From NCBI RefSeq assembly GCF_023734095.1, contig NZ_AP024620.1:430501-494500 (forward strand): a stretch of DNA of 64,000 bases, in the 5' to 3' direction. Every line of letters begins with the position of its first letter. Within the stretch, counting starts at the first letter, position 1. The notes beneath the pieces were generated by a model that saw nothing but the letters and a program-made list of their open reading frames with translations, did not search any database and was not told where the DNA came from. This document shows, in pieces, positions 17,058 to 62,658 of this stretch. The stretch is from Moorella sp. Hama-1. Lineage in GTDB: Bacteria; Bacillota; DSM-521; Neomoorellales; Neomoorellaceae. Both the position numbers and the translations under genes were made by a program.

Positions 17058-17098
17058 TTATTGAGGCCCCTTATACCTGATTATGGAATATCCTAATA

Positions 17099-17111
17099 GT
17101 GATTCTATCAC
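17099..17111. promoter_or_regulatory. Operator candidate between divergent XRE genes
   Basis: GTGAT-TCT-ATCAC, a perfect inverted repeat with a 3-base centre, between the genes starting at 17057 (-) and 17197 (+). It has the size expected for a small XRE dimer. Confidence 0.55.
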
Positions 17112-17143
17112 GAGAATGAGAAGAAGATTAATCCCATTGGGGA

Positions 17144-17172
17144 TTGACAAATAAACCCTAAAGTGATAAGAT
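17144..17172 (+). promoter_or_regulatory. Sigma-A promoter of the XRE gene at 17197
   Basis: TTGACA at 17144-17149, 17-base spacer, TAAGAT at 17167-17172. The same -35/-10 pair and spacing recur at 17801-17829. Confidence 0.8.
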
Positions 17173-17196
17173 AATATTCACAGAGGTGATTGCTAA

Positions 17197-17409
17197 ATGC
17201 TCCGCCTCAAAGAAATGAGGCTTAAGGCGAAATTATCACAGCAGGAATTAGCCAAAAGGGCTGGGATTGGCCAGTCAACGATCCATTACATTGAAACCGG
17301 ACGTAAAAGCCCTACATACAAGGTACTAGAAAAACTTGCCACCGCCCTTGATGTATCAGTAGCCGATCTTTTAGAAGAAAGGCATAGCTCATTAAGCAGT
17401 ATAAGTTAA
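17197..17409 (+). CDS. XRE-family regulator (small)
   Basis: 70-aa single-domain helix-turn-helix protein: LKEMRLKAKLSQQELAKRAG, IGQSTIHYIETGRKSP, then the helix LEKLATALDVSVADLLEE. A minimal Cro/CI-type repressor. GAGGTGAT lies seven bases before ATG 17197 and a consensus promoter sits upstream. It stands between two minus-strand XRE genes. Confidence 0.85.
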   Translation: MLRLKEMRLKAKLSQQELAKRAGIGQSTIHYIETGRKSPTYKVLEKLATALDVSVADLLEERHSSLSSIS

Positions 17410-17418
17410 ATTCAACGG

Positions 17419-17733
17419 CTATTCACCTTTCATGCTCTTAATGAATTCTACCAGTTTTTTACGCTGGGATGGCGTGAGACTTTCAGCTTCCCTGAGTAGC
17501 TGACGAAGGTCAGGGGGAAGGGAAGGGGTTTCTTCTGAAAAGAATTCGGCCATAGTGAGGCCAAGCCCCTTTACGATACGCTCCAAGACATCAAAAGTAG
17601 GTTGACGTTTACCATTTTCTATTTCACTTATAGCAGATTGGGAAGCCCCGGATCTTTTAGCAAGCGCATTCATGCTTAAGTTTTGACGCTCTCTAAAAAA
17701 CTTAATTTTTAACCCTATATCCAATATGTACAC
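17419..17733 (-). CDS. XRE-family transcriptional regulator
   Basis: 104 aa with the helix-turn-helix IKFFRERQNLSMNALAKRSG, ASQSAISEIENGKRQP and a C-terminal tail nearly the same as that of the 16752-17057 regulator (LPPDLRQLLREAESLTPSQR...FIKSMKGE). The shared tail spans about 95 bases and is close to identical at DNA level. This suggests gene duplication with HTH replacement, or recombination through the tail. Confidence 0.85.
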   Translation of the reverse strand: MYILDIGLKIKFFRERQNLSMNALAKRSGASQSAISEIENGKRQPTFDVLERIVKGLGLTMAEFFSEETPSLPPDLRQLLREAESLTPSQRKKLVEFIKSMKGE

Positions 17734-17800
17734 CTCAATCTAGGCTATCTTAATTCAGATTGTACCATAGAAAATTTAATGATAATTATCCGATTACGTA

Positions 17801-17829
17801 TTGACAATATATCTAAAAACAGATAAGAT
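17801..17829 (+). promoter_or_regulatory. Sigma-A promoter of the XRE gene at 17858, with adjacent palindrome
   Basis: TTGACA at 17801-17806, 17-base spacer, TAAGAT at 17824-17829. Just upstream, GATAATTATC at 17781-17790 is a perfect 10-bp palindrome, a possible operator between the divergent XRE genes. Confidence 0.75.
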
Positions 17830-17857
17830 ATTATTTGAGAATGGTGAGGGAAGGTCA

Positions 17858-18061
17858 ATGAGTACATTATCTCAACGTTTAATTGAATTAAGGGGTAATC
17901 TTAGTCAAGCTGAGCTGGCAAGAAAAGCTGGAGTTCCGCAGTCTGCAATAAGTAATATAGAAAACGGTAAACGAATTCCCCGAATTGATACACTCCAGAA
18001 AATAGCCCTGGCCCTAGGTGTTAGAACCTCCGACCTCCTCGACGAAGATAAGGCGAGCTAG
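17858..18061 (+). CDS. XRE-family regulator (small)
   Basis: 67-aa helix-turn-helix protein: MSTLSQRLIELRGNLSQAEL, ARKAGVPQSAISNIENGKR, then a helix LQKIALALGVRTSDLLDED. ATG 17858 has GAGGGAAGG upstream. A longer reading from 17801 would begin inside the promoter and is rejected. It probably controls the downstream small genes. Confidence 0.85.
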   Translation: MSTLSQRLIELRGNLSQAELARKAGVPQSAISNIENGKRIPRIDTLQKIALALGVRTSDLLDEDKAS

Positions 18062-18083
18062 CGGTACATAAGGGGGGTGCCAA

Positions 18084-18269
18084 ATGGCCAAACGGCAACC
18101 GCAAGAATGGCCGCGAGATATAGAGTATATCCCCATATTTGAGCCTGATATGACCCGCATGGTCAAGGCCCTACAAATTCTTCTGGATTACAATCCAGAG
18201 GAAAAAACTAAGACTATCAATCAGGAGAACCCGACTAAGGATATATGTTTTTTAAATACAGAAGGATAG
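18084..18269 (+). CDS. Small hypothetical protein
   Basis: 61 aa: MAKRQPQEWPRDIEYIPIFE, a helix DMTRMVKALQILLDYN and a polar tail. AAGGGGGGTGCC lies just before ATG 18084. It follows the XRE gene by 22 bases and is probably in its operon. Phage- and ICE-like in style; function unknown. Confidence 0.55.
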   Translation: MAKRQPQEWPRDIEYIPIFEPDMTRMVKALQILLDYNPEEKTKTINQENPTKDICFLNTEG

Positions 18270-18283
18270 GGGGGTAACTTTAA

Positions 18284-18455
18284 ATGCGGGTGTACCTTCT
18301 AGCCCGTTACCGTAAAGAGGGAAATTATTGGAGAGCTACCCCCTGATTCGAATTATTGGGACGCAATAGTCAACTTCCTGTTAAAATGCATGAAAGCTGA
18401 TGGGTGGCTACCGCAGCCGGACCAAAGGCCCTTAAAAAGAACGGCCGTCAGTTAA
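18284..18455 (+). pseudogene. Probable frameshifted small gene
   Basis: ATG 18284 starts MRVYLLARYRKEGNYWRATP and stops. In another frame from about 18318 a protein-like stretch (EIIGELPPDSNYWDAIVNFL, LKCMKADGWLPQPDQRPLKR) runs to TAA at 18453-18455 without a start. Together they look like one short gene, about 60 aa, broken by an indel. It may equally be chance reading in a non-coding spacer. Confidence 0.35.
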
Positions 18456-18472
18456 TTAAAAGGTATTGCGAT

Positions 18473-18537
18473 TATATTCGCCGTTTCGTGTTCCATATCC
18501 TTCCAAGGTAAAATAAAAGCTCCAGGGAGAGGATCAA
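18473..18537. repeat. Right copy of the 65-bp repeat bracketing the XRE cluster
   Basis: Matches 16421-16486: TATATTCGCCGTT, TTCCATATCCTT-CAAGG, AAAATAAAA, GGGAGAGG. It lies directly in front of the gene at 18539 and contains that gene's ribosome-binding site. Confidence 0.8.
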
Positions 18538-21494: not shown

Positions 21495-22417
21495 CGGAAA
21501 GGAAGCTGTTCTACCGCTGGCTGGCCGGCGGCCTTTTCTGGCTGCTGCTTTTCGGCGGCGCCTTTTTATCGATCCGTAGCGCCAACATTGTCCGCCAGGC
21601 CGCCGGCCAGATTGCCGCTAACGCCATCACCCGCAACCAGGAACAGGCCATAACCAGCGCCCGGGAAGTCGCCCGGGCGCTGGCCGTAGAATGGGCCACC
21701 TGGAACGGCAGCCCGGACGATTACAACCGCCGCCTGGGAGCCTTTTTTAAAAACGCCGGCGGCTTCACCCTCCCAGACGGCATCCAGGAGGTGGTATCAG
21801 CCTCAGTCATATCGGTAACCGGCCGGGAGCCCCAGTACCGGGTACAGGTCCTGTTGCACCTGCGCCGGTTGGTGCCGGCCACCCCGGCCGAAGCCCAGGC
21901 CGCGGCCCCGGTCAATGTCCCCGTGACCCAGGAAGACCTCTTGCGGTGGAAGCAGGGCGGGACGTTGGACCAGCAGAAGACTGTGCCGGTCTGGAAGGAT
22001 TACCTGCTCAAGGTGGAAGTGCCGGTGCAGGCTAAAGAAAACCAGGCCCAGGTGGCCGGCCTGCCGGTAGTTACCGCCAATAACCAGGGAGAGGGGGTGA
22101 TTAAGGAACCGGGGTACAACGAAAGCGCCCCGCAGCAGTTTACAACCTTCATCAACCAATTCTTGAACCTTTATTATGCCGGCGGGTCCCTGGCCAACTT
22201 CCTGGCGCCGGGCGCCGCTATAACCGCCGCCGGGGGGTGGAAACTGGAGAGCGTCGATGAGGTGCTGGTAGACAACAGCGCTAACCCCGGCAGGGCCTGC
22301 GTCCGGGCGACAATATCCGCGCCAGGGGCCGGGCGCCTGGCGCAAAGGATGTTCCTCAAAATCAAGATGGAGAGGGGGAGTTATCTGGTAGATGACGTAA
22401 GTGCGCAGCCGCAGTGA
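21494..22417 (+). CDS. tcpC: TcpC-like (VirB8-type) conjugation protein with ACG start
   Basis: About 307 aa. One N-terminal membrane helix (FYRWLAGGLFWLLLFGGAF), then two NTF2-like external domains, the second containing FINQFLNLYYAGGSLANFLA. This is the architecture of TcpC/ConC-type proteins of Gram-positive conjugation systems, which form part of the channel. The frame has no ATG, GTG or TTG before residue 100, where GTG 21791 would delete the membrane anchor. AGGAGGTG (21479-21486) is seven bases upstream of ACG 21494, which overlaps the previous stop. I therefore propose ACG initiation; CTG 21506 is a poorer choice. Confidence 0.75.
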   Translation, partial: TERKLFYRWLAGGLFWLLLFGGAFLSIRSANIVRQAAGQIAANAITRNQEQAITSAREVARALAVEWATWNGSPDDYNRRLGAFFKNAGGFTLPDGIQEVVSASVISVTGREPQYRVQVLLHLRRLVPATPAEAQAAAPVNVPVTQEDLLRWKQGGTLDQQKTVPVWKDYLLKVEVPVQAKENQAQVAGLPVVTANNQGEGVIKEPGYNESAPQQFTTFINQFLNLYYAGGSLANFLAPGAAITAAGGWKLESVDEVLVDNSANPGRACVRATISAPGAGRLAQRMFLKIKMERGSYLVDDVSAQPQ

Positions 22418-22902: not shown

Positions 22903-22913
22903 AGGTGGCAACC

Positions 22914-23300
22914 GTGGAAAAGCAAGAAACGCGAATGTACAACAGCTATAAGTCGCTGTTCCACATCAGATTCAAAATCCATAACTTCGGCGACAAGACC
23001 CTGCCGCGGGGGTTATCCATTGAAACCCTGGCCATGTTCGTTATCCTGTACCTGCCCCTCTGGCCCCTGGGCCGCCTGCTGTACCCGGCCCACCCCTGGA
23101 TCGGGGCGGTAATTACTGCCGGGGCGGCGGCCTGGTTACTGGCCCAGTCCGACCCCCAAGGCAAATTCCTGCCCCTGTTTATCCTGGGCCTGGCTGAATA
23201 TGTGGTCAGGCCCAAAACTACCGACTACTCCGGCCGGGCCGTCTCCCGCCGCCGCAAAAGCCGCCTGGAGTGGGAGCTAATGGAGGTGGACGACGATTGA
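22914..23300 (+). CDS. tcpE: TcpE-like conjugation membrane protein
   Basis: About 128 aa. The cytoplasmic start is followed by two close membrane helices (TLAMFVILYLPLWPLGRLL; WIGAVITAGAAAWLLAQ), then GKFLPLFILGLAEYVVRPKT and a basic tail SRRRKSRLEWEL. This is the TcpE/ConD pattern. GTG 22914 follows TGAGGTGG; GTG 22905 is the other option. It overlaps the VirB4-like gene by four bases, as in related systems where TcpE/ConD precedes the ATPase. Confidence 0.8.
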   Translation: MEKQETRMYNSYKSLFHIRFKIHNFGDKTLPRGLSIETLAMFVILYLPLWPLGRLLYPAHPWIGAVITAGAAAWLLAQSDPQGKFLPLFILGLAEYVVRPKTTDYSGRAVSRRRKSRLEWELMEVDDD

Positions 23301-30160: not shown

Positions 30161-30212
30161 AAACTACTTAAGCCTGATTTTGATCCCGGCATCAACGCCC
30201 CGGCAGCCTTTT
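30161..30212 (-). pseudogene. Remnant of a higA 3' end
   Basis: On the minus strand this reads like the last 15 codons of the higA gene at 31086-31355 (K-A-A-G-A-L ... G-I-K-I-R-L-K-stop against KVARALDAKIEIKLK), with one frame change. The DNA matches 31084-31135 closely, starting AACTACTTAAG on the plus strand. Together the two copies bracket the VapBC genes. Confidence 0.75.
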
Positions 30213-30228
30213 GCCCCCCACCCGTTTA

Positions 30229-30654
30229 TCAGGGGTACTCACTTAATAAACGGACAAATTTGAGGTCATTTTTTACGGCGTTATGCAACCTTTGGTCCGC
30301 GGTGAAAAGTTCACATCCCTTTATTTGGGCCGCCGCGATATAGGCTGTATCGTAAGCGCTTATCTGGTACTTGCGGCTTAAAGAAAAAATCCTATCAGAC
30401 TCTTGTTCGACATCTATCCAGGCGATCTGTAGGGCGGTAATCTCCTTAGCTGTTTTAATGAAAACTTCATCGCTGATCCTGCGGCGTCTTGAGGCTACCA
30501 GGCACGCATTAATCAGTTCAAGAGCCAGCAGTCTTGGGCCGAAAAGATTGGTTCGGCCCAAAGCGTAGTCCAGCATCAATTTTTTAGCCTTGGAGGAAAG
30601 CTCGTCGGGGAAATAGGCACAAAGGATGGCGCTTGCGTCCGCTACAACGTCCAT
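30229..30654 (-). CDS. vapC: VapC-type PIN-domain toxin
   Basis: 141 aa, PIN ribonuclease. MDVVADASAILCAYFPDEL has the first catalytic Asp, LLALELINA the Glu, YDTAYIAAA and FTADQRLHNAV the later Asp residues. All acidic residues are present. It follows the antitoxin gene with its start next to the stop (30654). Part of the cargo inserted behind higBA. Confidence 0.88.
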   Translation of the reverse strand: MDVVADASAILCAYFPDELSSKAKKLMLDYALGRTNLFGPRLLALELINACLVASRRRRISDEVFIKTAKEITALQIAWIDVEQESDRIFSLSRKYQISAYDTAYIAAAQIKGCELFTADQRLHNAVKNDLKFVRLLSEYP

Positions 30655-30914
30655 TATTTTTCCCTCGCTTCGAGTTCCTGCCGCGAAGCCCGGAAAATTT
30701 CCCCTGCGGTTATCCCCGAATCCTTCATGGCCTCAGAAATCTCCTGCATGGCAAGGTAATTTTTGATGCGGCTTAGGTTGGCGTATTCTTCATAAGGAAG
30801 GAGAGCGGCCACCGGCTTCCCTCTTTTCTCCAGAACTACGCTTTCCCAGCCCTCTACCCTTCTAATTAAATCAAGGAAAGATTCTTTGGCCTGGGTTACA
30901 TTTAGAGACATCAT
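30654..30914 (-). CDS. vapB: Phd/YefM-type antitoxin of VapC
   Basis: 86 aa: MSLNVTQAKESFLDLIRRVE, then VVLEKRGKPVAALLPYEEY, the Phd/YefM fold that binds DNA, and a helical C terminus that wraps the toxin. GGGGGTGA lies upstream. The palindrome CCATATTATATGG at about 30935-30947 may be the operator. Confidence 0.87.
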   Translation of the reverse strand: MMSLNVTQAKESFLDLIRRVEGWESVVLEKRGKPVAALLPYEEYANLSRIKNYLAMQEISEAMKDSGITAGEIFRASRQELEAREK

Positions 30915-31042
30915 AACTAGTCACCCCCACTAACCATATTATATGGCTGTTGTATAGGGAAAGCAAGTGCAGCAAGGAGAATGAAAATGGGTAAATGTCA
31001 TTCCAAAGAAAACGCGCAACTTAGGGGGGAATCCTACGGAAG

Positions 31043-31075
31043 CCCCTCCCTAACCACGGAGGGGTTAGGGAGGGG
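31043..31075. terminator. Perfect 13-bp hairpin between higBA and vapBC
   Basis: CCCCTCCCTAACC (31043-31055) pairs with GGTTAGGGAGGGG (31063-31075). There is no T-run on either side, so it may be a structural or insertion-related element instead of a terminator. Confidence 0.5.
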
Positions 31076-31085
31076 TAGTTCAGAA

Positions 31086-31355
31086 CTACTTAAGCTTGAT
31101 TTCGATCTTGGCGTCTAGCGCCCTGGCGACCTTTTTTAAAAAACGAAGGGAGGGATTATAGGTTCCGCTTTCCAATCTGGCAATGGCTGATTGGCGCGTT
31201 CCTACTTTACGCGCCAGTTCAGCCTGGCTGATGCCTTTGAGTTTTCGTTGTTCAATGATAGACTTGACAAGTTGGTATTCCGGCTCCAGGTCATCATAGG
31301 CCTGGCGAAAGGCTGGTTCCTTCATCAGTTTGTTTTTGAATTCCTTCCACTTCAT
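31086..31355 (-). CDS. higA: HigA-type antitoxin
   Basis: 89 aa with an HTH_XRE domain (IIEQRKLKGISQAELARKVG, TRQSAIARLESGTYNPSLRF). It should neutralise HigB and repress the pair. ATG 31355 overlaps the higB stop by four bases. Its 3' end is partially duplicated at 30161-30212. Confidence 0.88.
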   Translation of the reverse strand: MKWKEFKNKLMKEPAFRQAYDDLEPEYQLVKSIIEQRKLKGISQAELARKVGTRQSAIARLESGTYNPSLRFLKKVARALDAKIEIKLK

Positions 31356-43028: not shown

Positions 43029-43055
43029 CAAAAATAAGCGAAGGGAGTAATGCTT

Positions 43056-43577
43056 ATGCGTAAGAGTATTTTAGCAGTAATAATTACGGGGGCTTTTATA
43101 GCCGGAGTGGCTACTGGTTTCGGCGGCGGGTATTACAAGTATGTGGCCGCCCCGAAAAAACAGGCTGTAGCGATGGCCCAGAAGCAGCAGGAAGAGATGA
43201 ACAAGATGGTGCGGCATGGTACCTTAACGGCTGTGGAGCCGGATAAATTGACTCTTAAAGTTGAAAAAGGCGGCGGGGATATCGGCCAGACGTTAACCCT
43301 GGCCACTAACGAGTATACTTCTATCCAGGTGGGGATGGGCTTTATGAATAAGCCGGGAGAAAAAGCAGACCTCACGAAATGGTTTAAAGCCGGCGATACC
43401 ATTGACGCCTTGGTGAAGGACGGCCAGGCCCTGGCCCTGCACCGGGAACCCCGTCCGGGGGAACAGGAGCAGCAGGGACAGGTTAGCGCCTTGCCTGGCG
43501 GCCAGCCGTCCCCCAGCCCGGGCCAAACGGCCACGGGGCAGGGGCAGGCGGTACCGGGACAGGGACAGAAAAAGTGA
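43056..43577 (+). CDS. Exported protein whose 3' end is repeated twice downstream
   Basis: 173 aa. N-terminal membrane anchor or signal (MRKSILAVIITGAFIAGVAT GFGGG, no clear cleavage site), a short helical stem, a beta-rich domain (LTAVEPDKLTLKVEKGGGDI) and a low-complexity Gln/Pro/Gly tail (PGEQEQQGQVSALPGGQPSP). Start at ATG 43056, nine bases after GGGAG. The last third of the gene and about 60 bases beyond recur at 46245 and 47440, between cargo modules. Function unknown; perhaps associated with the pilus. Confidence 0.7.
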   Translation: MRKSILAVIITGAFIAGVATGFGGGYYKYVAAPKKQAVAMAQKQQEEMNKMVRHGTLTAVEPDKLTLKVEKGGGDIGQTLTLATNEYTSIQVGMGFMNKPGEKADLTKWFKAGDTIDALVKDGQALALHREPRPGEQEQQGQVSALPGGQPSPSPGQTATGQGQAVPGQGQKK

Positions 43578-43633
43578 TACCGTAAGGACAGCAATACGAG
43601 GCATTGAGAAGGGGGCCGGGGTAACCCGGCTCC
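43389..43633 (+). repeat. Copy 1 of the gene-end repeat (parent copy)
   Basis: From GCCGGCGATACCATTGACGC to the hairpin GCCGGGGTAACCCGGC. It covers the last 63 codons of the gene at 43056 and its 3' flank. Confidence 0.9.
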
Positions 43634-43890
43634 TAGTGTTGGGTCAAGATATAAGATTGCGCCGATCATGGTAGTTCGCATTCCAACGGTGAACGATAAG
43701 GCCGTTTAAGATATAATGGTTCATGATCGATCTGGACCAGACAATCAAGCAATAAATCTGTCATATTAAGTAAAAATCGGCCATGTATGTGAAAAAGCCG
43801 ACTTTGAAATGCAGGAATCCTCTCGCTTCCGAAGAAATATGGTATGTCAAGGGAATGGGCTGTTATGGCCTTTTGGAAGGGGAGGAAATG
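43634..43890. other. Spacer at the left border of the ParB-Dam cargo
   Basis: Contains GATATAAGAT at 43648-43657, which recurs at 46210-46219, the right border of this cargo. The remainder is AT-rich and carries the promoter and ribosome site of the next gene. Confidence 0.5.
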
Positions 43891-45318
43891 ATGTCAACGT
43901 ACACCCAACTCAATCTAAACATTACCGACCTGCTCTTGAATACGTCAAATCCTCGATTTGACCCTGTGGATCATCAACGCGAGGCCATTGAGGAAATGAT
44001 TAAAGACCAACAAGGAAAGTTGGTTGTTCTAGCACGGCATATAATGGAATTTGGGCTTAACCCTATTGACCCATTGTTAGTGAAGCCTCATAAAGGACAA
44101 TGGGTCGTGAAGGAGGGAAATAGGCGCGCGACAGCACTAAAGCTGGTAAATCAACCATCTTTAATTCCTGTGACTCAGCCTGAGTTAAGGAGAGCTTTCG
44201 AGACTCTGAGCAAGCAGGTTAGCAGTAATTTGCTAAGAAGCATCCCCTGTATTGCTACAGAAGATGATACCCTTATTAATGAATGGGTGAGGCTTAAGCA
44301 TACCGGGCAGAATGACGGCGCAGGTACGGTGGGATGGGATGGCACGCAGACAGCTAGGTTCAGGTCAATGGTTGAGGGCAAACCCGACATGAGGCTTGAG
44401 TTCCTGGACTATCTGCGTGGCCTTGATGAGATACCTAATGACCTAAAGGCCAGGTTTTCCCAAATTATGAAAACAAATTTCGACCGCCTAATGGGTGACC
44501 CCGACGTCCGAGCACATTTCGGGTTGGATATCAGAGAAGGGATAATGCGGCCGGTAGACGGGGTGAATGAGTTACTATTGCTCGCTCTTGATGATCTTTC
44601 TGGAGGAGACTTCAGTGTAGCGAGAATCTATACAAAAGACCTTCGAAGAGAGTATATTGATGAACTGATCAAGCGTGCCGAGGAACGATGGACGGCTGAT
44701 AATACTAATAGGCAAGAGTATGATGAGAAGCCAACAAACAGTGAAGATGGGCATTCGGGTGGAGAAGCGGACGAGGCTGGGACGGTCAGGAAAGGCAGGG
44801 AAAACGAGGGTAGCTACGGAGAGGATACTGGGGGGAGCAGCACAGACTTAGGTGGAGGTAGCAAACCCAAGGGAAAGAAGAGTTACCCTATCAATAGGAA
44901 AACATTGGTACCATCTTTCCACAAGTTGCCGATAGACCATCCACGCCTTTCGAAAATATTTGCGGAGCTCAAGACCCTCAATGTTAAGGAATTCGCTAAC
45001 GCAGTTGCCGTCTTGCTTAGAACTTTCATTGAGTTGAGCGCGGATTACTACATAGGTGTGAAGGGAATCAATAAGGTCAATGTTGATAGCAAACTAGGAA
45101 ATAAAATAGATGCTATCGCGGATGATATGAAGGCCAAAGGCATAATGACAGATCATGAACTGCGGCCTATCCGGCAAATGACTTCCAGTCCGGCACAGAC
45201 CCAGTCAGTGAAAACTTTTCACAGCTACGTACACAACTTGGATGTTACTCCACTGGCAGATGACCTGAAGAGTGCATGGGATGATATCTGGAGATTTGTC
45301 GAAAACATGTGGCGGTGA
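43891..45318 (+). CDS. ParB/sulfiredoxin-like nuclease-domain protein
   Basis: About 475 aa. The N-terminal third has a ParB-type fold with DLLLNTSNPRFDPVDHQREA, PLLVKPHKGQWVVKEGNRRA (ParB box EGNRR) and LKLVNQPSLIPV. The middle and C terminus are unrecognised, separated by an acidic Gly/Ser linker (residues about 290-335). No HTH like that of chromosomal ParB is seen, so segregation is unlikely. ATG 43891 after AAGGGGAGG. It is followed, six bases after its stop, by a DNA adenine methylase, and the pair forms one cargo block. Confidence 0.72.
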   Translation: MSTYTQLNLNITDLLLNTSNPRFDPVDHQREAIEEMIKDQQGKLVVLARHIMEFGLNPIDPLLVKPHKGQWVVKEGNRRATALKLVNQPSLIPVTQPELRRAFETLSKQVSSNLLRSIPCIATEDDTLINEWVRLKHTGQNDGAGTVGWDGTQTARFRSMVEGKPDMRLEFLDYLRGLDEIPNDLKARFSQIMKTNFDRLMGDPDVRAHFGLDIREGIMRPVDGVNELLLLALDDLSGGDFSVARIYTKDLRREYIDELIKRAEERWTADNTNRQEYDEKPTNSEDGHSGGEADEAGTVRKGRENEGSYGEDTGGSSTDLGGGSKPKGKKSYPINRKTLVPSFHKLPIDHPRLSKIFAELKTLNVKEFANAVAVLLRTFIELSADYYIGVKGINKVNVDSKLGNKIDAIADDMKAKGIMTDHELRPIRQMTSSPAQTQSVKTFHSYVHNLDVTPLADDLKSAWDDIWRFVENMWR

Positions 45319-45324
45319 TAAAGG

Positions 45325-46206
45325 ATGATTTATCCATCCCCACTCCGTTATCCTGGGGGTAAGCGCAAACTGGCACGATTTATTGCTGATATCATGGTTG
45401 AGAACGGAATGGCTGAAGGAACTTATGTTGAGCCATTCGCGGGTGGAGCGAGTGTTGCTCTTACTCTGTTGTTCCAAGAATATGTGGGCAGGGTCATTAT
45501 CAACGATCTTGACCGGTCAATTTATGCTTTCTGGCATGTTGTTCTCAATGATCCCGAAAGGCTCTGTCGCCGGATCGCGGATACAGCAATAACAGTGGAA
45601 GAATGGGAAAGACAGCGGAAGGTTCAGATAGCAAAGGATACAGCTGATTTCCTTGACTTGGCGTTCTCAACCTTCTTTCTTAACAGGACCAACAGGTCGG
45701 GAATCATTAAAGGTGGTATTATTGGAGGCAAGAAGCAAGCGGGGAATTGGCATATGGATGTTAGATTTAACAAGGATGACCTCATTAAAAGAATAGAGAA
45801 AATCTCGTTGTACAGTCATCGAATTCATCTTTATGGTCTTGATGCCATGGATTTTATAGGCCTTATTGAGGGTGAACTTGACGATAAAACATTAATATAC
45901 TTCGATCCGCCGTATTATAGCAAGGGCGGCGCTTTATACGTGAACCACTACAAGCATCAGGACCACGAAAAGCTGGCTGGTTTTATCCAGGGCCTCAATG
46001 TGCCATGGATCCTTACTTATGATAGCTCCCCGCAGATACTTGACATGTATGCTAGAGTAGAGAAGCGCTTTCTATCTTTGAATTACACTGCTACTAATAA
46101 AAAGAAGGTTTATGAGATGATCGCCTTTAGTAATGGCCTATCCATTCCGGAGCACAATTACCCTTCAATAAGAATAGAATCAGCCATGTTGCCGCTTAAG
46201 GCATAG
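45325..46206 (+). CDS. DNA adenine methylase (D12 class)
   Basis: 293-aa N6-adenine methyltransferase of the Dam/D12 type. Motif I is in LRYPGGKRKLARFI and VEPFAGGASVALTL, the catalytic DPPY in YFDPPYYSKGGALY near residue 193, and FFLNRTNRSGIIKGGI between them. All motifs are intact. It probably methylates a short site; specificity cannot be read. No cognate restriction gene is adjacent; the ParB-like protein is its partner. Confidence 0.9.
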   Translation: MIYPSPLRYPGGKRKLARFIADIMVENGMAEGTYVEPFAGGASVALTLLFQEYVGRVIINDLDRSIYAFWHVVLNDPERLCRRIADTAITVEEWERQRKVQIAKDTADFLDLAFSTFFLNRTNRSGIIKGGIIGGKKQAGNWHMDVRFNKDDLIKRIEKISLYSHRIHLYGLDAMDFIGLIEGELDDKTLIYFDPPYYSKGGALYVNHYKHQDHEKLAGFIQGLNVPWILTYDSSPQILDMYARVEKRFLSLNYTATNKKKVYEMIAFSNGLSIPEHNYPSIRIESAMLPLKA

Positions 46207-46244
46207 TTTGATATAAGATGTTCGCTAGGAGTGAATGTATTGAA

Positions 46245-46466
46245 GCCGGTGATATCATTGACGCCCTGGTGAAGGACGGCCAGGCTTTAGCCCTGCACCG
46301 GGAACCCCGGCCGGGGGAACAGGAGCAGCAGGGACAGGTTAGCGCTCTTCCTGGCGGCCAGCCTTCCCCCGATACCGGCCAGGCGACCCCGGCGCAGGGG
46401 CAGAAGAAGTGATGCCGTAAGGACAGCAATGCGGGGCATTGAGAAGGGGGCCGGGGTAACCCGGCC
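46245..46466 (+). pseudogene. Copy 2 of the gene-end repeat
   Basis: Near-identical to 43389-43633, including the reading frame (DALVKDGQALALHREPRPGE) to TGA at 46410-46412 and the 3' hairpin. It differs by a shorter Gln/Gly tail. No signal peptide or start belongs to it. It closes the ParB-Dam cargo. Confidence 0.88.
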
Positions 46467-46501
46467 ATTATTATTGGCCCGGGCAAGAAAGGATGCCCGG
46501 G

Positions 46502-47038
46502 TTATTTTTTAAGGGACAATTTATACCATGCGTGGAATTTGGGTTTGTACCATCCCTTTATCAAAATAAACCTGAGAACTGCAGATAGCCACATTCCTAC
46601 ACTGGCAAGGATTTTCTGGAGTTTTGATGGTTTAATTTCTATGTATTCAGGTTTTAACGGTAGATATTTTAATACGCTAGGGGAAATGAGATGGGTGATA
46701 ACAACCAATGTATGTCCTTCAGGAATCTTTGCTAGGGTGGTTGGCAGGGTATTTTCTATCATATCCCGGTATAGTTTTTTTAAAGCTCCAGGTGGTGGAT
46801 TCGTCGATAAGAGCCAGAAAGAAGGGACTATATTTTTTTGGAGGTGCCATTCGTGCCGGGCTTTGCGAACCAATCTGAAATAGGAACTGACGCTAAGGGC
46901 AACAATATTGTATATGACGTAAGTAATAATAATGGATCCTATTACAAAAATATTGCCAGGAAAGGCGAGAACGATTGCGATTGTTTCCCAAACAATAATC
47001 GCGTCGATGTTAATAATAATTGCAGTGCGCTCAAGCAA
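46502..47038 (-). CDS. Hypothetical membrane protein in cargo block 2
   Basis: 178 aa from TTG 47038, with AAGGGAG eight bases upstream. Two N-terminal membrane helices (TAIIINIDAIIVWETIAIVL; NIFVIGSIIITYVIYNIVAL), a polar middle (HEWHLQKNIVPSFWLLSTNP) and a C-terminal region with ILASVGMWLSAVLRFILI. AT-rich, with codon use unlike the pilus genes. It overlaps in antisense the first 200 bases of the next frame, so at most one of the two uses that DNA fully. Confidence 0.5.
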   Translation of the reverse strand: MLERTAIIINIDAIIVWETIAIVLAFPGNIFVIGSIIITYVIYNIVALSVSSYFRLVRKARHEWHLQKNIVPSFWLLSTNPPPGALKKLYRDMIENTLPTTLAKIPEGHTLVVITHLISPSVLKYLPLKPEYIEIKPSKLQKILASVGMWLSAVLRFILIKGWYKPKFHAWYKLSLKK

Positions 47039-47443
47039 ATAAAAGGCTCCCTTATTTTTATATCAATTGGCTTTTTAATACTAGCAGTGGGATATGTTAT
47101 CTATTCGGTATTTATTTCGCCATCTTTGACTAGTTTCCTACATTTTCTTTACAACCCTTCTTTTTTAGGGGAGAAGTTTTCGTCGGAGGTGAATTATGCT
47201 AGAGTTATAGCACTTTCTTTAACTTCATATACTGGTTTACTTTTAGGTGTGAAAGGGATATATAATACTTTGCCGCTAAAGATTGCCGATTCATGGGTAG
47301 TAGTAATAGGATTGTTAGTTTTCCTGCTTTCGCCTTTAGGTTTGATATGGATTTTATGGCATTTTCACTTCGTGGATAAATTAGGTTGGACAATTGTTTA
47401 CTTAATGCAAATATGGATGCTTTTTGTCTTGCCGGAAATGTGA
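46838..47443 (+). CDS. Hypothetical membrane protein, 5' part doubtful
   Basis: The second half, from about 47040, has four hydrophobic helices (LIFISIGFLILAVGYVIYSV; VIALSLTSYTGLLLGVKG; VVVIGLLVFLLSPLGLIWIL; TIVYLMQIWMLFVL). The first 67 residues are Asn-rich and lie antisense to the gene at 46502-47038, so the true start may be later or the gene may be 5'-truncated. It ends right at the border of repeat copy 3. Confidence 0.4.
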   Translation: MEVPFVPGFANQSEIGTDAKGNNIVYDVSNNNGSYYKNIARKGENDCDCFPNNNRVDVNNNCSALKQIKGSLIFISIGFLILAVGYVIYSVFISPSLTSFLHFLYNPSFLGEKFSSEVNYARVIALSLTSYTGLLLGVKGIYNTLPLKIADSWVVVIGLLVFLLSPLGLIWILWHFHFVDKLGWTIVYLMQIWMLFVLPEM

Positions 47444-47629
47444 AGGACGGCCAGGCTTTAGCCTTGCACCGGGAAGCACGGCCGGGGGAACAGGAGCAGA
47501 AGGGACAGGGTAGCGCTCTTCCTGGCGGCCAGCCGTCCCCTAATACTGGCCAGGAAGTCCCGGAAAAAGTGAGGCTGAAGAAATAACAGGACGTTATATT
47601 GACAAAGGGGGCCGGGGTAACCCGGCTCC
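47440..47629 (+). pseudogene. Copy 3 of the gene-end repeat
   Basis: Begins abruptly at GTGAAGGACGGCCAGG and runs through VKDGQALALHREARPGEQEQ to a changed ending and TAA at 47584-47586, then GGGGGCCGGGGTAACCCGGC. It is the most diverged copy. It closes cargo block 2. Confidence 0.85.
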
Positions 47630-47660
47630 CTGGCATATTAATCTAGTGGAGGTGGCAGGA

Positions 47661-47966
47661 ATGGATCCGGTTTTATTCCTTCTCGTCCCGTTTGGCTGGT
47701 TTTTGATCTTCGGGCTGCTAGCCAGATCTTTCTGGGACCTGGAAGCTCATCCCTGGTTGTTGCTGGTTATTATCCCCTTTAGCCTGCTGGCGTCAATCTG
47801 GTCGTTTGATTTATGGGAAAATCGTTTTTACGTATTTGCAGGCGTTAAGGGGTTTATAGCGAAATTTATACATCGCTGGAAAAAAAGGAGCATGACCAGC
47901 AATCTAACGCCAAAAGAAAAAAGAGGACGCTACCTGGATTTCTGGTATGAGGAAAGGAGAGAGTAG
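47661..47966 (+). CDS. Small hypothetical membrane protein
   Basis: 101 aa from ATG 47661 after GGAGGTGG. Two membrane helices (VLFLLVPFGWFLIFGLLAR; LLLVIIPFSLLASIWSF) and a basic tail (IHRWKKRSMTSNLTPKEKRG). Two bases separate its stop from the next gene. Function unknown. Confidence 0.6.
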   Translation: MDPVLFLLVPFGWFLIFGLLARSFWDLEAHPWLLLVIIPFSLLASIWSFDLWENRFYVFAGVKGFIAKFIHRWKKRSMTSNLTPKEKRGRYLDFWYEERRE

Positions 47967-47968
47967 CG

Positions 47969-48655
47969 ATGGAGAAGGTTATACCTGTCACGGGCGCGTT
48001 TTTCTTTGTGATATGGCTGCCGGGAATAATCTGCCTTTGGCGAATAAGGAGCTTAAGGGGCATCAATATCGGTAGCTTTATGCTTGAGGGCTTGATTTAT
48101 GGGTGTATTAGCATGGCAGTAACTTTCCTTGTGTTTACTGCCTTCTTTCGGGGCACCGGGGAAGATATCTTAACGGGAATGGTCATCATATTTACAAAGG
48201 GCTTCATAGAACTGATGAAAGATAAAAGCGGGTTGCAAACAGTTGTTTTTTTGGCGACCCTATACATAACCACCTTTGTTGTTGCGACTTTGTGGAGATG
48301 GCGTATGGGAAATAAAAAACGGGAGTTCTCGTTTATACCCGAATCCGCATTGGATGCCCAGCTTTTGCGGATTAGAGACAGAAGAGAGCTGGCGAGAATG
48401 ATGATAGAAACGGCGGATGGCAAAAAGCTGGAAGGAATTTGCCGGATATATACATTTACCGAGCCCCGCGAAGTATTGCTGGAGATTAAGGAGCAGGATG
48501 AGGAGAAGTGCTTATGGCTGAAACTTGATGAGGGGATAGCCAAAATTGAAATCCAAACCGAGCCAGCTGGAGAGGATTGGATACTTACTAGGGTTATAGC
48601 TTTGCTGGAGAACCTTAAGGCTATGCTTAGAAAAAAGAAAGAAGATAAGACTTAA
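47969..48655 (+). CDS. Hypothetical membrane protein with cytoplasmic C-terminal domain
   Basis: 228 aa. Helices near 8-24 (GAFFFVIWLPGIICLW), 40-60 (LIYGCISMAVTFLVFTAFF), 68-82 and 95-112 (VVFLATLYITTFVVATLW). The soluble part from 120 has a beta-rich segment (YTFTEPREVLLEIKEQDEEK). AAGGAGAGAG lies before ATG 47969. Probably forms a pair with the gene upstream. Confidence 0.6.
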   Translation: MEKVIPVTGAFFFVIWLPGIICLWRIRSLRGINIGSFMLEGLIYGCISMAVTFLVFTAFFRGTGEDILTGMVIIFTKGFIELMKDKSGLQTVVFLATLYITTFVVATLWRWRMGNKKREFSFIPESALDAQLLRIRDRRELARMMIETADGKKLEGICRIYTFTEPREVLLEIKEQDEEKCLWLKLDEGIAKIEIQTEPAGEDWILTRVIALLENLKAMLRKKKEDKT

Positions 48656-48748: not shown

Positions 48749-49051
48749 ATGTATATGGCTAATGTGACAGATATCCGGCAGAACGCCAGCAAGATAATCG
48801 CCCGAGTGGTAGAAACGGGTGAGCCGGCGGTAGTCTTGCAACGGTCAAAACCAGTCGTTTACATTGTAGAGGCTGCCGCTTATGAAACAATGCTGAAAAA
48901 ACTTGAAGCGGCGGAGAACCTGTTCCGGGTTGAAGAAACCAAGAACGCCTTACAAAAAATTGCCGGGCTGCGGGAAAGGATGGCCCCAAGGGGCAAACAG
49001 ACTGATTCCGTGCCCCTGCTCCGGGAATTGCGGGAGGGCGAGGGCCGTTGA
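48749..49051 (+). CDS. vapB: Phd/YefM-type antitoxin
   Basis: 100 aa: MANVTDIRQNASKIIARVVE, TGEPAVVLQRSKPVVYIVEA, the Phd/YefM fold, then a helical C terminus rich in charged residues. AAAGGAG nine bases before ATG 48749; ATG 48755 is also possible. Overlaps vapC by four bases. Confidence 0.85.
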   Translation: MYMANVTDIRQNASKIIARVVETGEPAVVLQRSKPVVYIVEAAAYETMLKKLEAAENLFRVEETKNALQKIAGLRERMAPRGKQTDSVPLLRELREGEGR

Positions 49052-49524
49052 ATTATGTCTGTTTGGATAGCAGCGTATTGCTTAAACTGCTCACCTGGGA
49101 AGACGGGAGTGAAGCAGCGGCGGAATTAATGGAGCGCATAGTCGAATCCGGCCAGGTGGTTATTCTACCGGCTTTCGCCTGGGCCGAAGTGGGCAGCGTA
49201 TTGCGTAAAAAGGCCAGGAAAAAAGAAATTACACATGAAGAAGCGGGAGAAGCCTGGCATCTGTTCTGTCAGCTAAAGATTATTTCTTACTTGGAGAGCG
49301 AAAAAATAGCCGGCGCGTCATGGGAGATTGCCGTGAAAGAAAATCTTCCCACTCTTTATGACGCCGCTTATCTGGCCGTAGCGGAAAGCGCGGCGCAGGA
49401 CTGTGGGGGAACTTGTGAATTCTGGACTGCCGATGAAAGAATGGTAAACGCCCTGGGCGGAAAGAAGAAGTATGTGAAGCTGTTGGAAACAGAAAAGACG
49501 GCCATGGCGGGTAAGGAAAAGTAA
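49048..49524 (+). CDS. vapC: VapC-type PIN-domain toxin
   Basis: 158 aa from TTG 49048, which overlaps the antitoxin TGA. MNYVCLDSSVLLKLLTWEDG with the first Asp, LPAFAWAEVGSVLRKKA with the Glu, LYDAAYLAVAE and FWTADERMVNALG with the later Asp residues. The active site is complete. A separate family member from the VapC at 30.2 kb. Confidence 0.88.
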   Translation: MNYVCLDSSVLLKLLTWEDGSEAAAELMERIVESGQVVILPAFAWAEVGSVLRKKARKKEITHEEAGEAWHLFCQLKIISYLESEKIAGASWEIAVKENLPTLYDAAYLAVAESAAQDCGGTCEFWTADERMVNALGGKKKYVKLLETEKTAMAGKEK

Positions 49525-55531: not shown

Positions 55532-55577
55532 TGAAAGAGCTGTACCTTTAACTGAACTTAAAAAGGAGCGTGGTTTT

Positions 55578-55649
55578 ATGCTGGTACTTCAAACCAATTC
55601 CCAACCGGCGGCTCTGGCCACGGTCAAGGCCGTAGGTGCAGGCGCATGA
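55578..55649 (+). pseudogene. Truncated copy of the parM 5' end
   Basis: ATG 55578 behind the same AAAAAGGAGCGTGGTTTT leader as parM reads LVLQTNSQPAALATVKAVGA and stops. Its first 15 codons match parM (LAIQTNPQPAALA), then homology ends. The upstream terminator is duplicated too. The next gene overlaps its stop. Confidence 0.85.
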
Positions 55650-55996
55650 AAGTTTCAAAACCAGCCATGGTAGATCGAAGAGATACCTGGCGTTTTATTA
55701 CTAAAGCTTTATGCCGCATACTCTGGTATTCTTCTTGGGTGTTGCTCTTTTGGGATGTATTCACGTTTTTCCTCATGATAATAGCTGCAGTCCTGCTGTT
55801 TACACAGGGTTTTAAAATTGAAGCCCTTCGCTTAATTAAGCTGGGGGGTGTTTTCTTTTTGACAGGACTTCTTATAGCCTTTTGGGGGATGTTAATTTGT
55901 TGCCTCGCAGATCCAGGTAGAGGGTTAAATTTATTGCGCTATAAATTTTTAAATTGGGACGGCGGAGATAAAAGGGATAAATTAAGCCCTGGTTAG
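55646..55996 (+). CDS. Small hypothetical membrane protein inserted before parM
   Basis: 116 aa from ATG 55646, overlapping the fragment's stop (ATGA), so its translation may depend on the captured parM leader. Polar basic N terminus, then membrane helices ILWYSSWVLLFWDVFTFFLM, IIAAVLLFTQ and LGGVFFLTGLLIAFWGMLIC. AT-rich. No family recognised. Confidence 0.55.
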   Translation: MKVSKPAMVDRRDTWRFITKALCRILWYSSWVLLFWDVFTFFLMIIAAVLLFTQGFKIEALRLIKLGGVFFLTGLLIAFWGMLICCLADPGRGLNLLRYKFLNWDGGDKRDKLSPG

Positions 55997-56056
55997 TATA
56001 AAAAGGGTATGCCGGTAATGGAATAAGAACGAACAGATATAATGTTGGAGGCATGG

Positions 56057-56090
56057 AACCAGGGTAGATCTACCCTGGTTTTTCTTTTTT
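56057..56090 (+). terminator. Intrinsic terminator before parM
   Basis: A perfect 24-bp palindrome at 56057-56080 centred on AGATCT, with AACCAGGG at its left end, followed by TTTCTTTTTT. Confidence 0.85.
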
Positions 56091-56136
56091 AAGGGCTTAT
56101 ATGTTCAACTTAACCATTAAAAAGGAGCGTGGTTTT

Positions 56137-57183
56137 ATGCTTGCAATTCAAACCAACCCCCAACCGGCGGCCCTGGCCATCGACGTGGGCTTCGGTTATA
56201 CCAAAGCGGTATCTTCAGCCGGCAGTAAAGTTATCTTCCCTTCAGTTGTCGCCCCGGCAGGTTCTCCCGACGCCTTTGAAAGGCTAGATAAAAGCGATAC
56301 CGGCTACCGGGTGCGGATTAAAAAGTGGATTGACGGCCCTGTAGAAGAATGGCTGGTAGGCGAACTGGCCCTGAAGGAAGGGCGGGAGGTGCAGTATTTC
56401 CAGGACTGGGAGAAACACAGCCACCCGGCCCATGACGCCGTATTGCTGGCCGCTGCTGTTTTAACCTGGAACTGGCCCCGGGCCGGTAGCGGTATCATCG
56501 GGATCAGCAGCCCTGCCCTGGTGGTAGGGCTGCCGGTGGATGTCTGGCGCGACGAACTGCAGCGGGAAGGCCTTAAGAGGCACCTGGCGGGCCTGGTAGC
56601 CGAGGTGAGCGTCGACGGGAACGACCCGGTGCGGGTGACCTTCAGCAAGGTTTATGTCTACCCCCAGGCCGCCGGCGCTTTCCTTACCGTTCCTGATCTT
56701 CCCGACAGCGGCATCGTGGCCCTGGTAGACGTGGGACAGAAAACCACTGATAGCGCGGCGATAGAGATTGTCAACGGCCGGCAGAGGCTGGTAAAAACCA
56801 TGTGCTTCAGCATCAACAAAGGCATGGCGGCCCTGGTGGAAGCCGTGCGGGAGGAATTCCGGCGGCAGACCGGGGCGCCCCTGCCGCCCCAGCAGGCCTG
56901 GGAGACGGTAAAAAGCGGATCCCTCTGGTACCGGGGCAAGCAGATTGATATGGCCCCGGCGATTAAAAAGGCCCGGTCGGAGATAGCCCGGGCCATAGCC
57001 GACCAGGTGCTGGCCGGGTGGGGCGAGAGGGCCGATTTTGTCAGGAAAGTATACCTGGCCGGCGGCGGGATATTAGACTTGCCGGATTTAAAAAATATGT
57101 TCCCGGCGGCTGCGGTCCTGCCTGGTCCCCAGTGGGCCAATGCCCTGGGGTTCTTAAAAGTAGCGAGAGGACTGGCTGTTTAA
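56137..57183 (+). CDS. parM: ParM/StbA-type actin-like plasmid partition ATPase
   Basis: 348 aa, actin-fold filament protein. Phosphate 1 loop is ALAIDVGFGYTKAVS near residue 12, then GISSPALVVGLPVD, phosphate 2 VALVDVGQKTTDSA near 200, FSINKGMAALVEAVREEF, and the adenosine motif VYLAGGGILDLPDL near 310. It would move copies of an extrachromosomal form. ATG 56137 behind AAAAAGGAG. The palindromic sites and small gene downstream complete a type II partition system. Confidence 0.88.
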   Translation: MLAIQTNPQPAALAIDVGFGYTKAVSSAGSKVIFPSVVAPAGSPDAFERLDKSDTGYRVRIKKWIDGPVEEWLVGELALKEGREVQYFQDWEKHSHPAHDAVLLAAAVLTWNWPRAGSGIIGISSPALVVGLPVDVWRDELQREGLKRHLAGLVAEVSVDGNDPVRVTFSKVYVYPQAAGAFLTVPDLPDSGIVALVDVGQKTTDSAAIEIVNGRQRLVKTMCFSINKGMAALVEAVREEFRRQTGAPLPPQQAWETVKSGSLWYRGKQIDMAPAIKKARSEIARAIADQVLAGWGERADFVRKVYLAGGGILDLPDLKNMFPAAAVLPGPQWANALGFLKVARGLAV

Positions 57184-60282: not shown

Positions 60283-62658
60283 ATCAAAACCCTTATTATC
60301 ACCGAGAAACCATCTGTCGCCCGTGACCTGGCCGCCGCCCTGGGCAGTTTCCGGAGCCAGGGCGGTTACCTGGAAAACGGGCAATACTACATCTCCTGGG
60401 CGCTGGGGCACCTTTTAGAACTGGCCGAACCTGAGGACTACGACCCTACCCTTAAAAAATGGTCCCTTGAGCAGTTGCCCTTTATCCCCAGGGAGTTTAC
60501 CCTCAAACCTATCAGTAGCGGCAGGAAACAGCTGGCTGTAATCAAGGGTCTGGTACAGGCCCCGGACGTAAGCGCTGTGGTGAACGCCTGCGACGCCGGC
60601 CGGGAAGGAGAACTCATATTCCGCCGCATCTACACCTGGTGCAAAGGTCAGAAACCCGTCAAGCGCCTCTGGCTCTCGGAGGCCACGTCGGCGGCCATCA
60701 AAGAAGCCTTTCGTCACCTCCGCGTAGGTGAAGAATTGGATAACCTGGCGGCGGCCGCCGAAGCCCGGGCACAGGCCGACTGGCTGGTAGGCATCAATGC
60801 CACCAGGGCCTTCACCTGCCGCCACAAGAGGTTGCTTTCGGTCGGCCGGGTCCAGACCCCCACCCTGGCCCTGGTGGTGGCCAGGGAAAGGGAGATCCGT
60901 GCTTTCAAGCCGGAACCCTATTTCGAGCTTTGGGCCACCTTCCGGAAAAACACCGGAGCAACCTACCAGGGCAAATGGTTCCAGGAAAAGCAGGACCGGC
61001 TGCCGGAGAAAAAAGAAGCCGGGGACCTGGCCGGGCGAATAGGCGCTGGCGGCGCCGTCGAAACAGTGGAACAGAAGGAGGCCCGGGAACAGCCACCGCA
61101 GCTGTTCAACCTCAACGACCTCCAGAAAGAAGCCAACAAAAAATACGGCCTCACCGCCCAGCAAACCTTGGACGCGGCCCAGGCCCTGTATGAAAAACAT
61201 AAGCTTCTGACCTACCCCCGCACCGACAGCCGCCACCTTACGGCGGCCCTGGTCCGGGACACCCTGGCCGGGCGCCTCCAGGCCCTGGCCGGCATACCGG
61301 CCTACGCCAGCCTGGTACCAAAGACCCTGCCCCAGCTGGGCAAGCGGTACGTAGACGACAGCAAAGTCAGCGACCACCACGCCCTCATCCCCACGGCCGC
61401 AAGCCCCGATTCCAGCAAATTAAACCCGGCCGAGCAAAAGGTATACGACCTGGTAGCCCGGCGTTTCCTGGCCATCTTCTACCCGGATGCCCGGTACGCC
61501 GTGACCAGGGTGGTCACCACTGCCGGCGGCGAGAGTTTCTTATCCCAGGGCAGGGTGGAGTTGGATCAGGGCTGGAAGGCCGTCTACGGCCAGCAGGAAG
61601 AAGGCGGGGCAGAAAACAAAGACGAAGAAAGCCAGGCCCTCCCCCAGCTGGCGGAAGGCGAAGCAGTCGCCGTTCAGGGAGTAGAAGTAAAGGCGAAGCA
61701 GACCAGGCCGCCCCAGCGCTATACCGAAGCCACCCTCCTGGCGGCCATGGAGAACGCCGGCCGCCTGGTGGAAGACAAAGAAATGGCCGATACCCTGAAG
61801 GCCGCCGGCGGCATCGGCACCCCCGCCACCAGGGCGGCCATTATCGAGCGCCTTATCAAAGTCGGGTACCTTCAGCGGGAAAAGAAAAACCTGCTGCCTA
61901 CCGAAAAAGGTGAAACCCTTATCGGCCTGGTGCCGGAAGAGGTGAAGTCGGTCGAATTAACGGCCCGATGGGAGGAGGGGTTGAAAGAGATTGAAGAAGG
62001 GCGGCGCGACTGTAAAGAATGGCTGGAAGGAATAAAGAATTTCACCATGGAGGTGGTCCAAATGGCCAGGGAACAGGAAGCAGCCCCGGCGGCCGAGCCC
62101 GGCCGGGAAGCCCTGGGGCAGTGCCCCTTATGCGGCCGGGAGGTGATGGAATACCCTAAAAGCTACGGCTGCAGCGGCTACAAAGAAGGCTGCAAATTCG
62201 CCATCTGGAAAGAGATAGCCGGCAAAAAAATAACGGCCGGCCAGGCGAAGGAACTGCTGCAAAAAGGGAAAACCGGTGTAATTAAAGGCTTCAAGTCTAA
62301 GGCCGGCAAAAAGTTTGACGCCGCCCTGGCTCTGGGAGAAGAAGGCAGAGTAGGATTTGAATTTGCCGGGAGGGACAGCGAAGCCCTGGGGAAATGCCCT
62401 CTGTGCGGCAAAGACGTTATTGAGTCCCAGAAAGGGTACGGTTGCTCCGGGTGGAAGGAGGGTTGTAAATTCGTCATCTGGAAAGAAATCGCCGGCAAAA
62501 AGATTACCGCCGGCCAGGCGAAGGAGTTGCTGCAAAAAAGGAAAACTGGAGTGATAAAAGGATTTAAATCCAGGTCAGGCAAAGAATTCGATGCGGCACT
62601 AACGCTTAGCAATGATGGAATAGTAGAACTCGATTTCGGCAAAAAGCAGGAGGAATAA
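60283..62658 (+). CDS. topB: DNA topoisomerase III with two zinc-domain repeats, ATC start proposed
   Basis: About 791 aa, type IA topoisomerase. It begins KTLIITEKPSVARDLAAALG, the Toprim start, with ACDAGREGELIFRRI (Toprim DxDxE region) and the active-site Tyr in LTYPRTDSRHL near residue 310. Two tandem C-terminal modules, each with a CPLCGR/KxV zinc pair and IWKEIAGKKITAGQAKELLQ, follow. No canonical start exists upstream of TTG 60475, which would remove the Toprim core. AAGGGAGG at 60267-60274 is eight bases before ATC 60283, the codon in the M position of MKTLII. Conjugative elements often carry such enzymes. Confidence 0.9.
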   Translation: MKTLIITEKPSVARDLAAALGSFRSQGGYLENGQYYISWALGHLLELAEPEDYDPTLKKWSLEQLPFIPREFTLKPISSGRKQLAVIKGLVQAPDVSAVVNACDAGREGELIFRRIYTWCKGQKPVKRLWLSEATSAAIKEAFRHLRVGEELDNLAAAAEARAQADWLVGINATRAFTCRHKRLLSVGRVQTPTLALVVAREREIRAFKPEPYFELWATFRKNTGATYQGKWFQEKQDRLPEKKEAGDLAGRIGAGGAVETVEQKEAREQPPQLFNLNDLQKEANKKYGLTAQQTLDAAQALYEKHKLLTYPRTDSRHLTAALVRDTLAGRLQALAGIPAYASLVPKTLPQLGKRYVDDSKVSDHHALIPTAASPDSSKLNPAEQKVYDLVARRFLAIFYPDARYAVTRVVTTAGGESFLSQGRVELDQGWKAVYGQQEEGGAENKDEESQALPQLAEGEAVAVQGVEVKAKQTRPPQRYTEATLLAAMENAGRLVEDKEMADTLKAAGGIGTPATRAAIIERLIKVGYLQREKKNLLPTEKGETLIGLVPEEVKSVELTARWEEGLKEIEEGRRDCKEWLEGIKNFTMEVVQMAREQEAAPAAEPGREALGQCPLCGREVMEYPKSYGCSGYKEGCKFAIWKEIAGKKITAGQAKELLQKGKTGVIKGFKSKAGKKFDAALALGEEGRVGFEFAGRDSEALGKCPLCGKDVIESQKGYGCSGWKEGCKFVIWKEIAGKKITAGQAKELLQKRKTGVIKGFKSRSGKEFDAALTLSNDGIVELDFGKKQEE

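Follow-up and report, generated by a model that had tools for sequence, protein, structure and literature searches.

Array of gene ends in the Tad locus

How do three copies of the end of one gene come to stand in a row, with other genes between them? The locus that raises this question lies in a 64,000-nucleotide (nt) stretch of the Moorella sp. Hama-1 genome (contig NZ_AP024620.1, positions 430,501 to 494,500; hereafter the window, with coordinates counted from its first letter). It belongs to an element that resembles integrative and conjugative elements (ICEs) and carries a Tad pilus locus. The last gene of that locus, which we call the hot-spot gene, is followed by two blocks of cargo, each closed by a truncated copy of the gene's 3' end (a tail). 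We favour, with some reserve, the view that cargo was inserted twice in succession behind this one gene, by recombination between related elements, and that the array is what these events left. The array consists of:

43050-43577, + strand: intact hot-spot gene, last of the Tad pilus locus (open reading frame, ORF)
43387-43633, + strand: tail copy 1, the 3' part of the intact gene with its hairpin at 43615-43630 (repeat search, alignment)
43634-46242: cargo block 1, GC content 45% versus 61% for the upstream Tad genes
46243-46466, + strand: tail copy 2, without start and anchor, hairpin at 46450-46465 (alignment)
46467-47441: cargo block 2, GC content 37.5%
47440-47629, + strand: tail copy 3, ancestral gene end, hairpin at 47611-47626 (alignment, relative-rate test)

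The repeat search returned the tails as one three-member family of direct repeats, beginning at 43378, 46234 and 47405, with ungapped identities of 86% and 68%. Gapped alignment gave 88% identity over 198 nt for copies 1 and 2, 83% over 183 nt for copies 2 and 3, and 79% over 185 nt for copies 1 and 3. Both results bear out a sequence-only reading of this stretch, which had proposed three direct copies of one gene 3' end. That reading had also named matching by low-complexity composition as the thing to fear. The local alignment scores of the tails were 147, 108 and 77, the maximum in 500 dinucleotide shuffles (19-23) lies far below them, and the matches are therefore not of that kind. Copies 2 and 3 lack the gene start and the membrane-anchor region (the start and signal peptide of the earlier account), and a cargo block stands directly before each. 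In gene coordinates, the left end of copy 2 lies ~26 nt further upstream than that of copy 3. The shared coding end described earlier holds in so far as all three have the repeated tail, but the frame of copy 3 has drifted and reaches its stop codon after ...VPEKVRLKK instead of ...QGQKK.

All three copies, for which a common 3' flank had been noticed, close with a hairpin, GCCGGGGTAACCCGGC, that has a GTAA loop. When up to one mismatch was allowed, the hairpin pattern GGGGCCGGGGTAACCCGGC had three matches in the 3.32-Mb genome, and all three are the tails. Compared with shuffled sequence, the hairpins have the better fold (z -3.7 to -4.4; copy 1, z -3.7). Rfam gave no match in 42-50 kb of the window. 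The related tail in genome G005 ends in a hairpin of the same kind that runs into a T run, and because of this a terminator role is the likely prediction for the tail hairpin.

The copies share derived bases in an uneven manner. GGAGCAG and the GTAA loop are common to all three and were not seen in relatives, and copies 2 and 3 have further derived bases in common (GCTCTTCC) that are absent from copy 1. Copy 2 is 88% identical to copy 1 and 89% identical to the tail on contig 32 of Moorella mulderi. A tree of the tails, suggested earlier as a check, was built, and its bootstraps were 21-40 at all nodes but one, the tails being too short.

Copy 3 and the order of insertion

We wondered which copy is the original end of the gene. 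The sequences behind the array bear on this point:

47646-48655, + strand: small membrane protein gene and DUF6338-like gene, conserved neighbours of the original gene 3' end (PF19865, alignment)

On M. mulderi contig 32 and in genome G001, the small membrane protein gene lies directly behind the hot-spot gene; in Desulfovirgula it lies behind the hot-spot gene after a HerA insertion. The next gene is DUF6338-like in M. mulderi (PF19865, E 7e-6; E 3.8e-5 for the window gene), and a gene resembling it occupies the corresponding place in Desulfovirgula. The window has this pair behind copy 3, and the bases 3' of the copy 3 hairpin, CTCCCTGGCATATT, are common to both M. mulderi loci. Because its downstream neighbours and post-hairpin bases match those of single-tail relatives, copy 3 is, by this comparison, the ancestral gene end, and the two cargo blocks stand between the gene and this tail. 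Copy 3 had been taken for the oldest as the most diverged copy; its conserved neighbours agree with that age, and in relative-rate tests it also changes faster than the other copies (p = 3e-5 to 0.02 with different outgroups).

A parallel array is found in M. mulderi. On its contig 10, the gene with tail 1 is followed by a different divergent membrane pair, tail 2 and the small membrane gene; contig 32 carries a paralogous Tad element with a cargo-free, empty site. Contig 32 is 100% identical to the contig 10 gene body over ~240 bp, up to ...GAGCCCCG, and it matches contig 10 again from GGCCGGGGGA in tail 2 onward, over ~550 bp with very few mismatches. The end of tail 1 and the start of tail 2 on contig 10 differ from contig 32. 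Both identity tracts switch within ~2 bp of one homologous position, and a single switch point within the tail therefore relates the two loci. A single reciprocal crossover, in the direction of insertion or of loss, would give this relation. The same hot spot holds a further kind of cargo: in Desulfovirgula and G001 the hot-spot gene is immediately followed by HerA-like ATPase genes (L015:10545-11975, L020:8770-10131). HerA-like ATPases are often tied to defence.

The two cargo blocks

The cargo genes of the window are:

43894-45318, + strand: PD-Lambda-5 A, read earlier as ParB-like (PADLOC PDLC03998, E 1e-142)
45325-46206, + strand: PD-Lambda-5 B, D12-class adenine methyltransferase (PADLOC PDLC04018, E 2.7e-120; PF02086, E 3e-21)
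46502-47038, - strand: membrane protein A of cargo 2 (ORF)
46838-47443, + strand: membrane protein B of cargo 2, start position uncertain (ORF)

The PD-Lambda-5 A match is nearly full length (residues 7-473 on profile positions 6-464 of 466), PD-Lambda-5 B has an intact DPPY motif (YFDPPYY in the ORF), and B follows A on the same strand, 6 nt apart. By its profile matches, cargo 1 is a complete two-gene PD-Lambda-5 anti-phage system in canonical order. Functional selection in E. coli first revealed PD-Lambda-5, there a compact anti-phage system carried by a prophage (PMC9519451). Cargo 1 is a two-gene member with the same gene order; the E. coli original is prophage-borne, whereas cargo 1 is found in an ICE-like element of a thermophilic acetogen. 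PD-Lambda-5 A was not found in the other 10 of the 11 Moorella genomes searched.

Cargo 2 consists of two divergent, AT-rich membrane ORFs, and the stop codon of membrane protein B falls within the first bases of tail copy 3. No homologue of membrane protein A was found in the 10 other Moorella genomes, membrane protein B has no family match, and searches of plasmids and of viral contigs gave no match to either cargo 2 protein. A single-sequence fold model of membrane protein A had a predicted local distance difference test score (pLDDT) of 51, too low for use. We also compared the membrane pairs found in M. mulderi, in G001 and in the window as possible homologues and make no such claim: BLASTP was not significant, and 1-7 of 200 shuffles reached the observed score of the A proteins.

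The hot-spot gene

The ORF and an AlphaFold 2 model (mean pLDDT 69) give the hot-spot protein an N-terminal membrane-anchor helix, a small beta-barrel domain with strands in residues 54-132, and a disordered Gln/Pro-rich C-terminus (pLDDT <50 in residues 144-175). Nine homologues were aligned. The protein has no Pfam or NCBIfam family match, and a fold search returned OB-like matches such as CusF, none at E <= 0.001. In G005 (L022:9443-9830) the 5' half of the gene is gone, apparently to a transposase fragment, with tail and hairpin kept; the Tad genes are not upstream there.

How the array may have formed

We observed the three tails, what the cargo encodes, the ancestral neighbour behind copy 3, an array with other cargo in M. 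mulderi and the tail switch point of that species; from these we infer a history in which each insertion would have brought its own tail, homologous recombination would have done the work and the gene end would have served as the docking place. Cargo 2 would have entered first, between the gene and tail copy 3, bringing a second tail; cargo 1, the PD-Lambda-5 pair, would have come later in the same way with a third tail. After each insertion the gene beside the Tad operon would have been complete again. The recombining partners were most likely related copies of the element, a resident and an incoming one or two in the same cell. They would have paired through the gene tail, the far end of the cargo would have been joined illegitimately, and no cargo-borne integrase would have taken part. 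A Gln/Pro-rich disordered C-terminus and a terminator-like hairpin may make the gene end a tolerant docking place. Tail-based recombination between elements would explain both the mosaic tails and the M. mulderi switch, and derived bases of copies 2 and 3 that are absent from copy 1 are expected if tail 1 came from another lineage. Family and PADLOC profile searches revealed no recombinase in any cargo, and the ends of the cargo blocks and other inserts share no terminal motif. Related ICEs of the SXT/R391 group recombine and diversify when they meet in one cell, and the Moorella element can be likened to them. To our knowledge, exchange among SXT/R391 elements does not build serial gene-end copies around each cargo, whereas the proposed Moorella exchange would leave arrays of tails.

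An integrase could have done the same work. Each cargo would then be a decayed integrative element, similar to a cis-mobilizable element (CIME), placed at an attachment (att) site inside the gene 3' end and supplying a replacement tail. We regard this as rather unlikely, though as a serious contender. The layout fits (an intact gene, an element-borne tail, a displaced tail, tandem units and a restored 3' end), direct copies of the target gene end stand at every unit boundary, the M. mulderi switch falls within ~2 bp, and precedents are documented for e14 in icd (PMC11148124) and for CIME tandems (PMC5704250). In E. coli, e14 left a 165-bp displaced tail with 12 changes; e14 and phage 21 in icd (icdC) share with our locus the insertion in the 3' part of a gene, the element-borne tail and a slightly different displaced tail at the far end (PMC11148124). 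However, e14 is a prophage with its own integrase, and the Moorella inserts are 1-2.6 kb of cargo without recombinase, two in series. CIMEs and tandem accretion in the ICESt1 family and in the Dehalococcoides ssrA islands are alike in having tandem units behind one gene, each closed by a 3'-end copy, and some of these units lack recombination genes as the Moorella cargo does (PMC3146451, PMC5704250). The ssrA islands have a 20-bp repeat and integrase-bearing relatives at the site, whereas the Moorella repeats are ~190-245 bp long and 79-88% identical, and none of the tail matches in the 11 Moorella genomes, plasmids or viral contigs belonged to an integrase-bearing unit. Moreover, homology continues past the switch point on the wrong side for tens of nt, its start differs between copies 2 and 3 (by the ~26 nt given above), and other inserts in the element lie at unrelated target sequences. 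The tandem accretion at a hot spot proposed earlier is thus right in its outline of stepwise, serial insertion; an integrase acting at a fixed att site is wrong or unproved, given the missing recombinase and the differing left ends.

All tails might instead descend from the one resident gene, its end having been duplicated in place during insertion by a staggered break, slippage or unequal sister exchange. The GGAGCAG and GTAA-loop states, present in every copy and not seen in relatives, speak for this, as does a perfect 32-bp repeat in G001 that looks fresh. Yet the functional copy 1 is no closer to copy 2 (88%) than copy 2 is to the tail of another species (89%), and copies 2 and 3 have states absent from copy 1; we consider this origin improbable. 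Simple decay, in which the whole gene was amplified in tandem and insertions of unrelated cargo removed the 5' halves of two copies, would leave truncated copies behind an intact one in direct order, as observed. We give it hardly any credence: the sequence before copies 2 and 3 yielded no remnant of a 5' half, in two species the copies are truncated at closely spaced points, and cargo-free relatives have a single copy. A transposon with long target duplications was rejected, as there is no shared end motif and the inserts have no transposase. An integron cassette array was rejected as well, as what stands between the cargo blocks is gene tails of ~190-245 bp, which end in a plain hairpin and not in a structured attC; the integrase at 12265 scored 94.5 bits against the integron-integrase profile, below the cutoff of 265.

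Several points weigh against recombination between elements. No same-species strain shows the pre-insertion site, so the window array's own history is not directly readable, and most bootstraps of the tail tree are low. The derived GGAGCAG and GTAA loop would also fit in-place duplication or gene conversion. In M. mulderi, the direction of the event is equivocal: the start of tail 2 is unusually diverged against one outgroup (p = 0.005) and not against two others (0.34, 0.53). This genome is a draft assembly, although a collapsed repeat is argued against because a diverged stretch lies within the shared downstream part. Finally, that repeat-flanked inserts are commoner in the element than in the chromosome (see below) is only suggestive: none of 7 inserts in a chromosomal control of ~170 kb was repeat-bordered, too few for significance.

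The general kind of arrangement was already known; what is new is a defence-cargo hot spot that lies in an ICE-like element, has gene-end repeats of unusual length and lacks a recombinase. For the question of how mobile elements gain defence genes without transposase or integrase, the element family offers ordered layers (copies 3, 2 and 1), a parallel in another species and an occupied and an empty site in one genome, and the mode of cargo gain is therefore directly testable.

Other repeat-bordered inserts

We looked for inserts by pairwise comparison of eight members of the element family. One repeat-bordered insert lies in the window:

55558-56196, + strand: 80-bp start of the ParM-like gene, duplicated (55558-55637 and 56117-56196, 83%) around a 116-amino-acid membrane ORF

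This layout suggests that the 116-amino-acid ORF may borrow the translation start of its ParM-like host gene. The truncated first start ends GCATGA, its stop overlapping the ATG of the inserted ORF. In G001 (L021:15957-18289) the ParM-like start is duplicated around a larger cargo that includes an sce7726-family protein and a PD-Lambda-2_C match; a second predicted defence cargo, this PD-Lambda-2_C/sce7726 pair, is thus also bordered by a duplicated gene start. The 32-bp direct repeat of G001 (L021:7941-9014) lies at a pilin-like gene junction, around a divergent membrane-protein pair, and this insert is not present on M. mulderi contig 32 or in M. stamsii. In the window, a 52-bp repeat (73%) borders an apparent PIN-type toxin-antitoxin pair (30213-31083, region 30162-31134), and in M. 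stamsii a 122-bp repeat surrounds a block with apparent nucleotidyltransferase/HEPN-type ORFs, both read from ORFs. Many inserts in the element family have no bordering repeat. Two further repeats of the survey were set aside: repeat a, 34 bp that match through ribosome-binding-site similarity, and repeat g, which is dispersed among intergenic regions.

Selection could plausibly have favoured such repeats: in packed operons the survivors would be insertions that duplicated a shared boundary and kept both neighbours whole. The element family may even gain defence cargo by an integrase-free cassette process that uses its own gene ends (tails, starts and operon junctions) as sockets, a speculation that we think unlikely to hold. 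Part of the socket gene would travel with every cassette, so that its insertion or exchange would leave the gene whole and offer the next socket.

The host element

Features of the surrounding element are:

12265-13152: tyrosine integrase (PF00589, E 1.9e-43)
21791-22417: TcpC (Pfam, E 1e-20)
22905-23300: TcpE (Pfam, E 1e-14)
56101-57183: ParM-like actin gene (Pfam)
60475-62658: topoisomerase (Pfam)

These matches place the Tad locus and the tail array inside a predicted ICE-like element of Moorella. We found two relatives of the element each in M. mulderi and G001, and one in G009 on a separate 50-kb contig. The left part of the element contains repeats at 16421-18518 (46 bp, 85%, 2.05 kb apart; 106 bp, 93%, 667 bp apart), and a second apparent PIN/Phd-like toxin-antitoxin pair, read from ORFs, lies at 48749-49524.

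The serine kinase gene prkA is associated with sporulation. In G001 and M. stamsii it is split at nt ~857-867, with the Tad element between the halves or at the break. The gene is intact in the window (8309-10201) and split at this place in three other Moorella (G001 C3:30580-91402; G002 C21:45384, C70; G003 C7, C17). These splits are reminiscent of skin-type elements in sporulation genes. G001 and G003 also have a second prkA split, at nt ~760, made by another, smaller insert.

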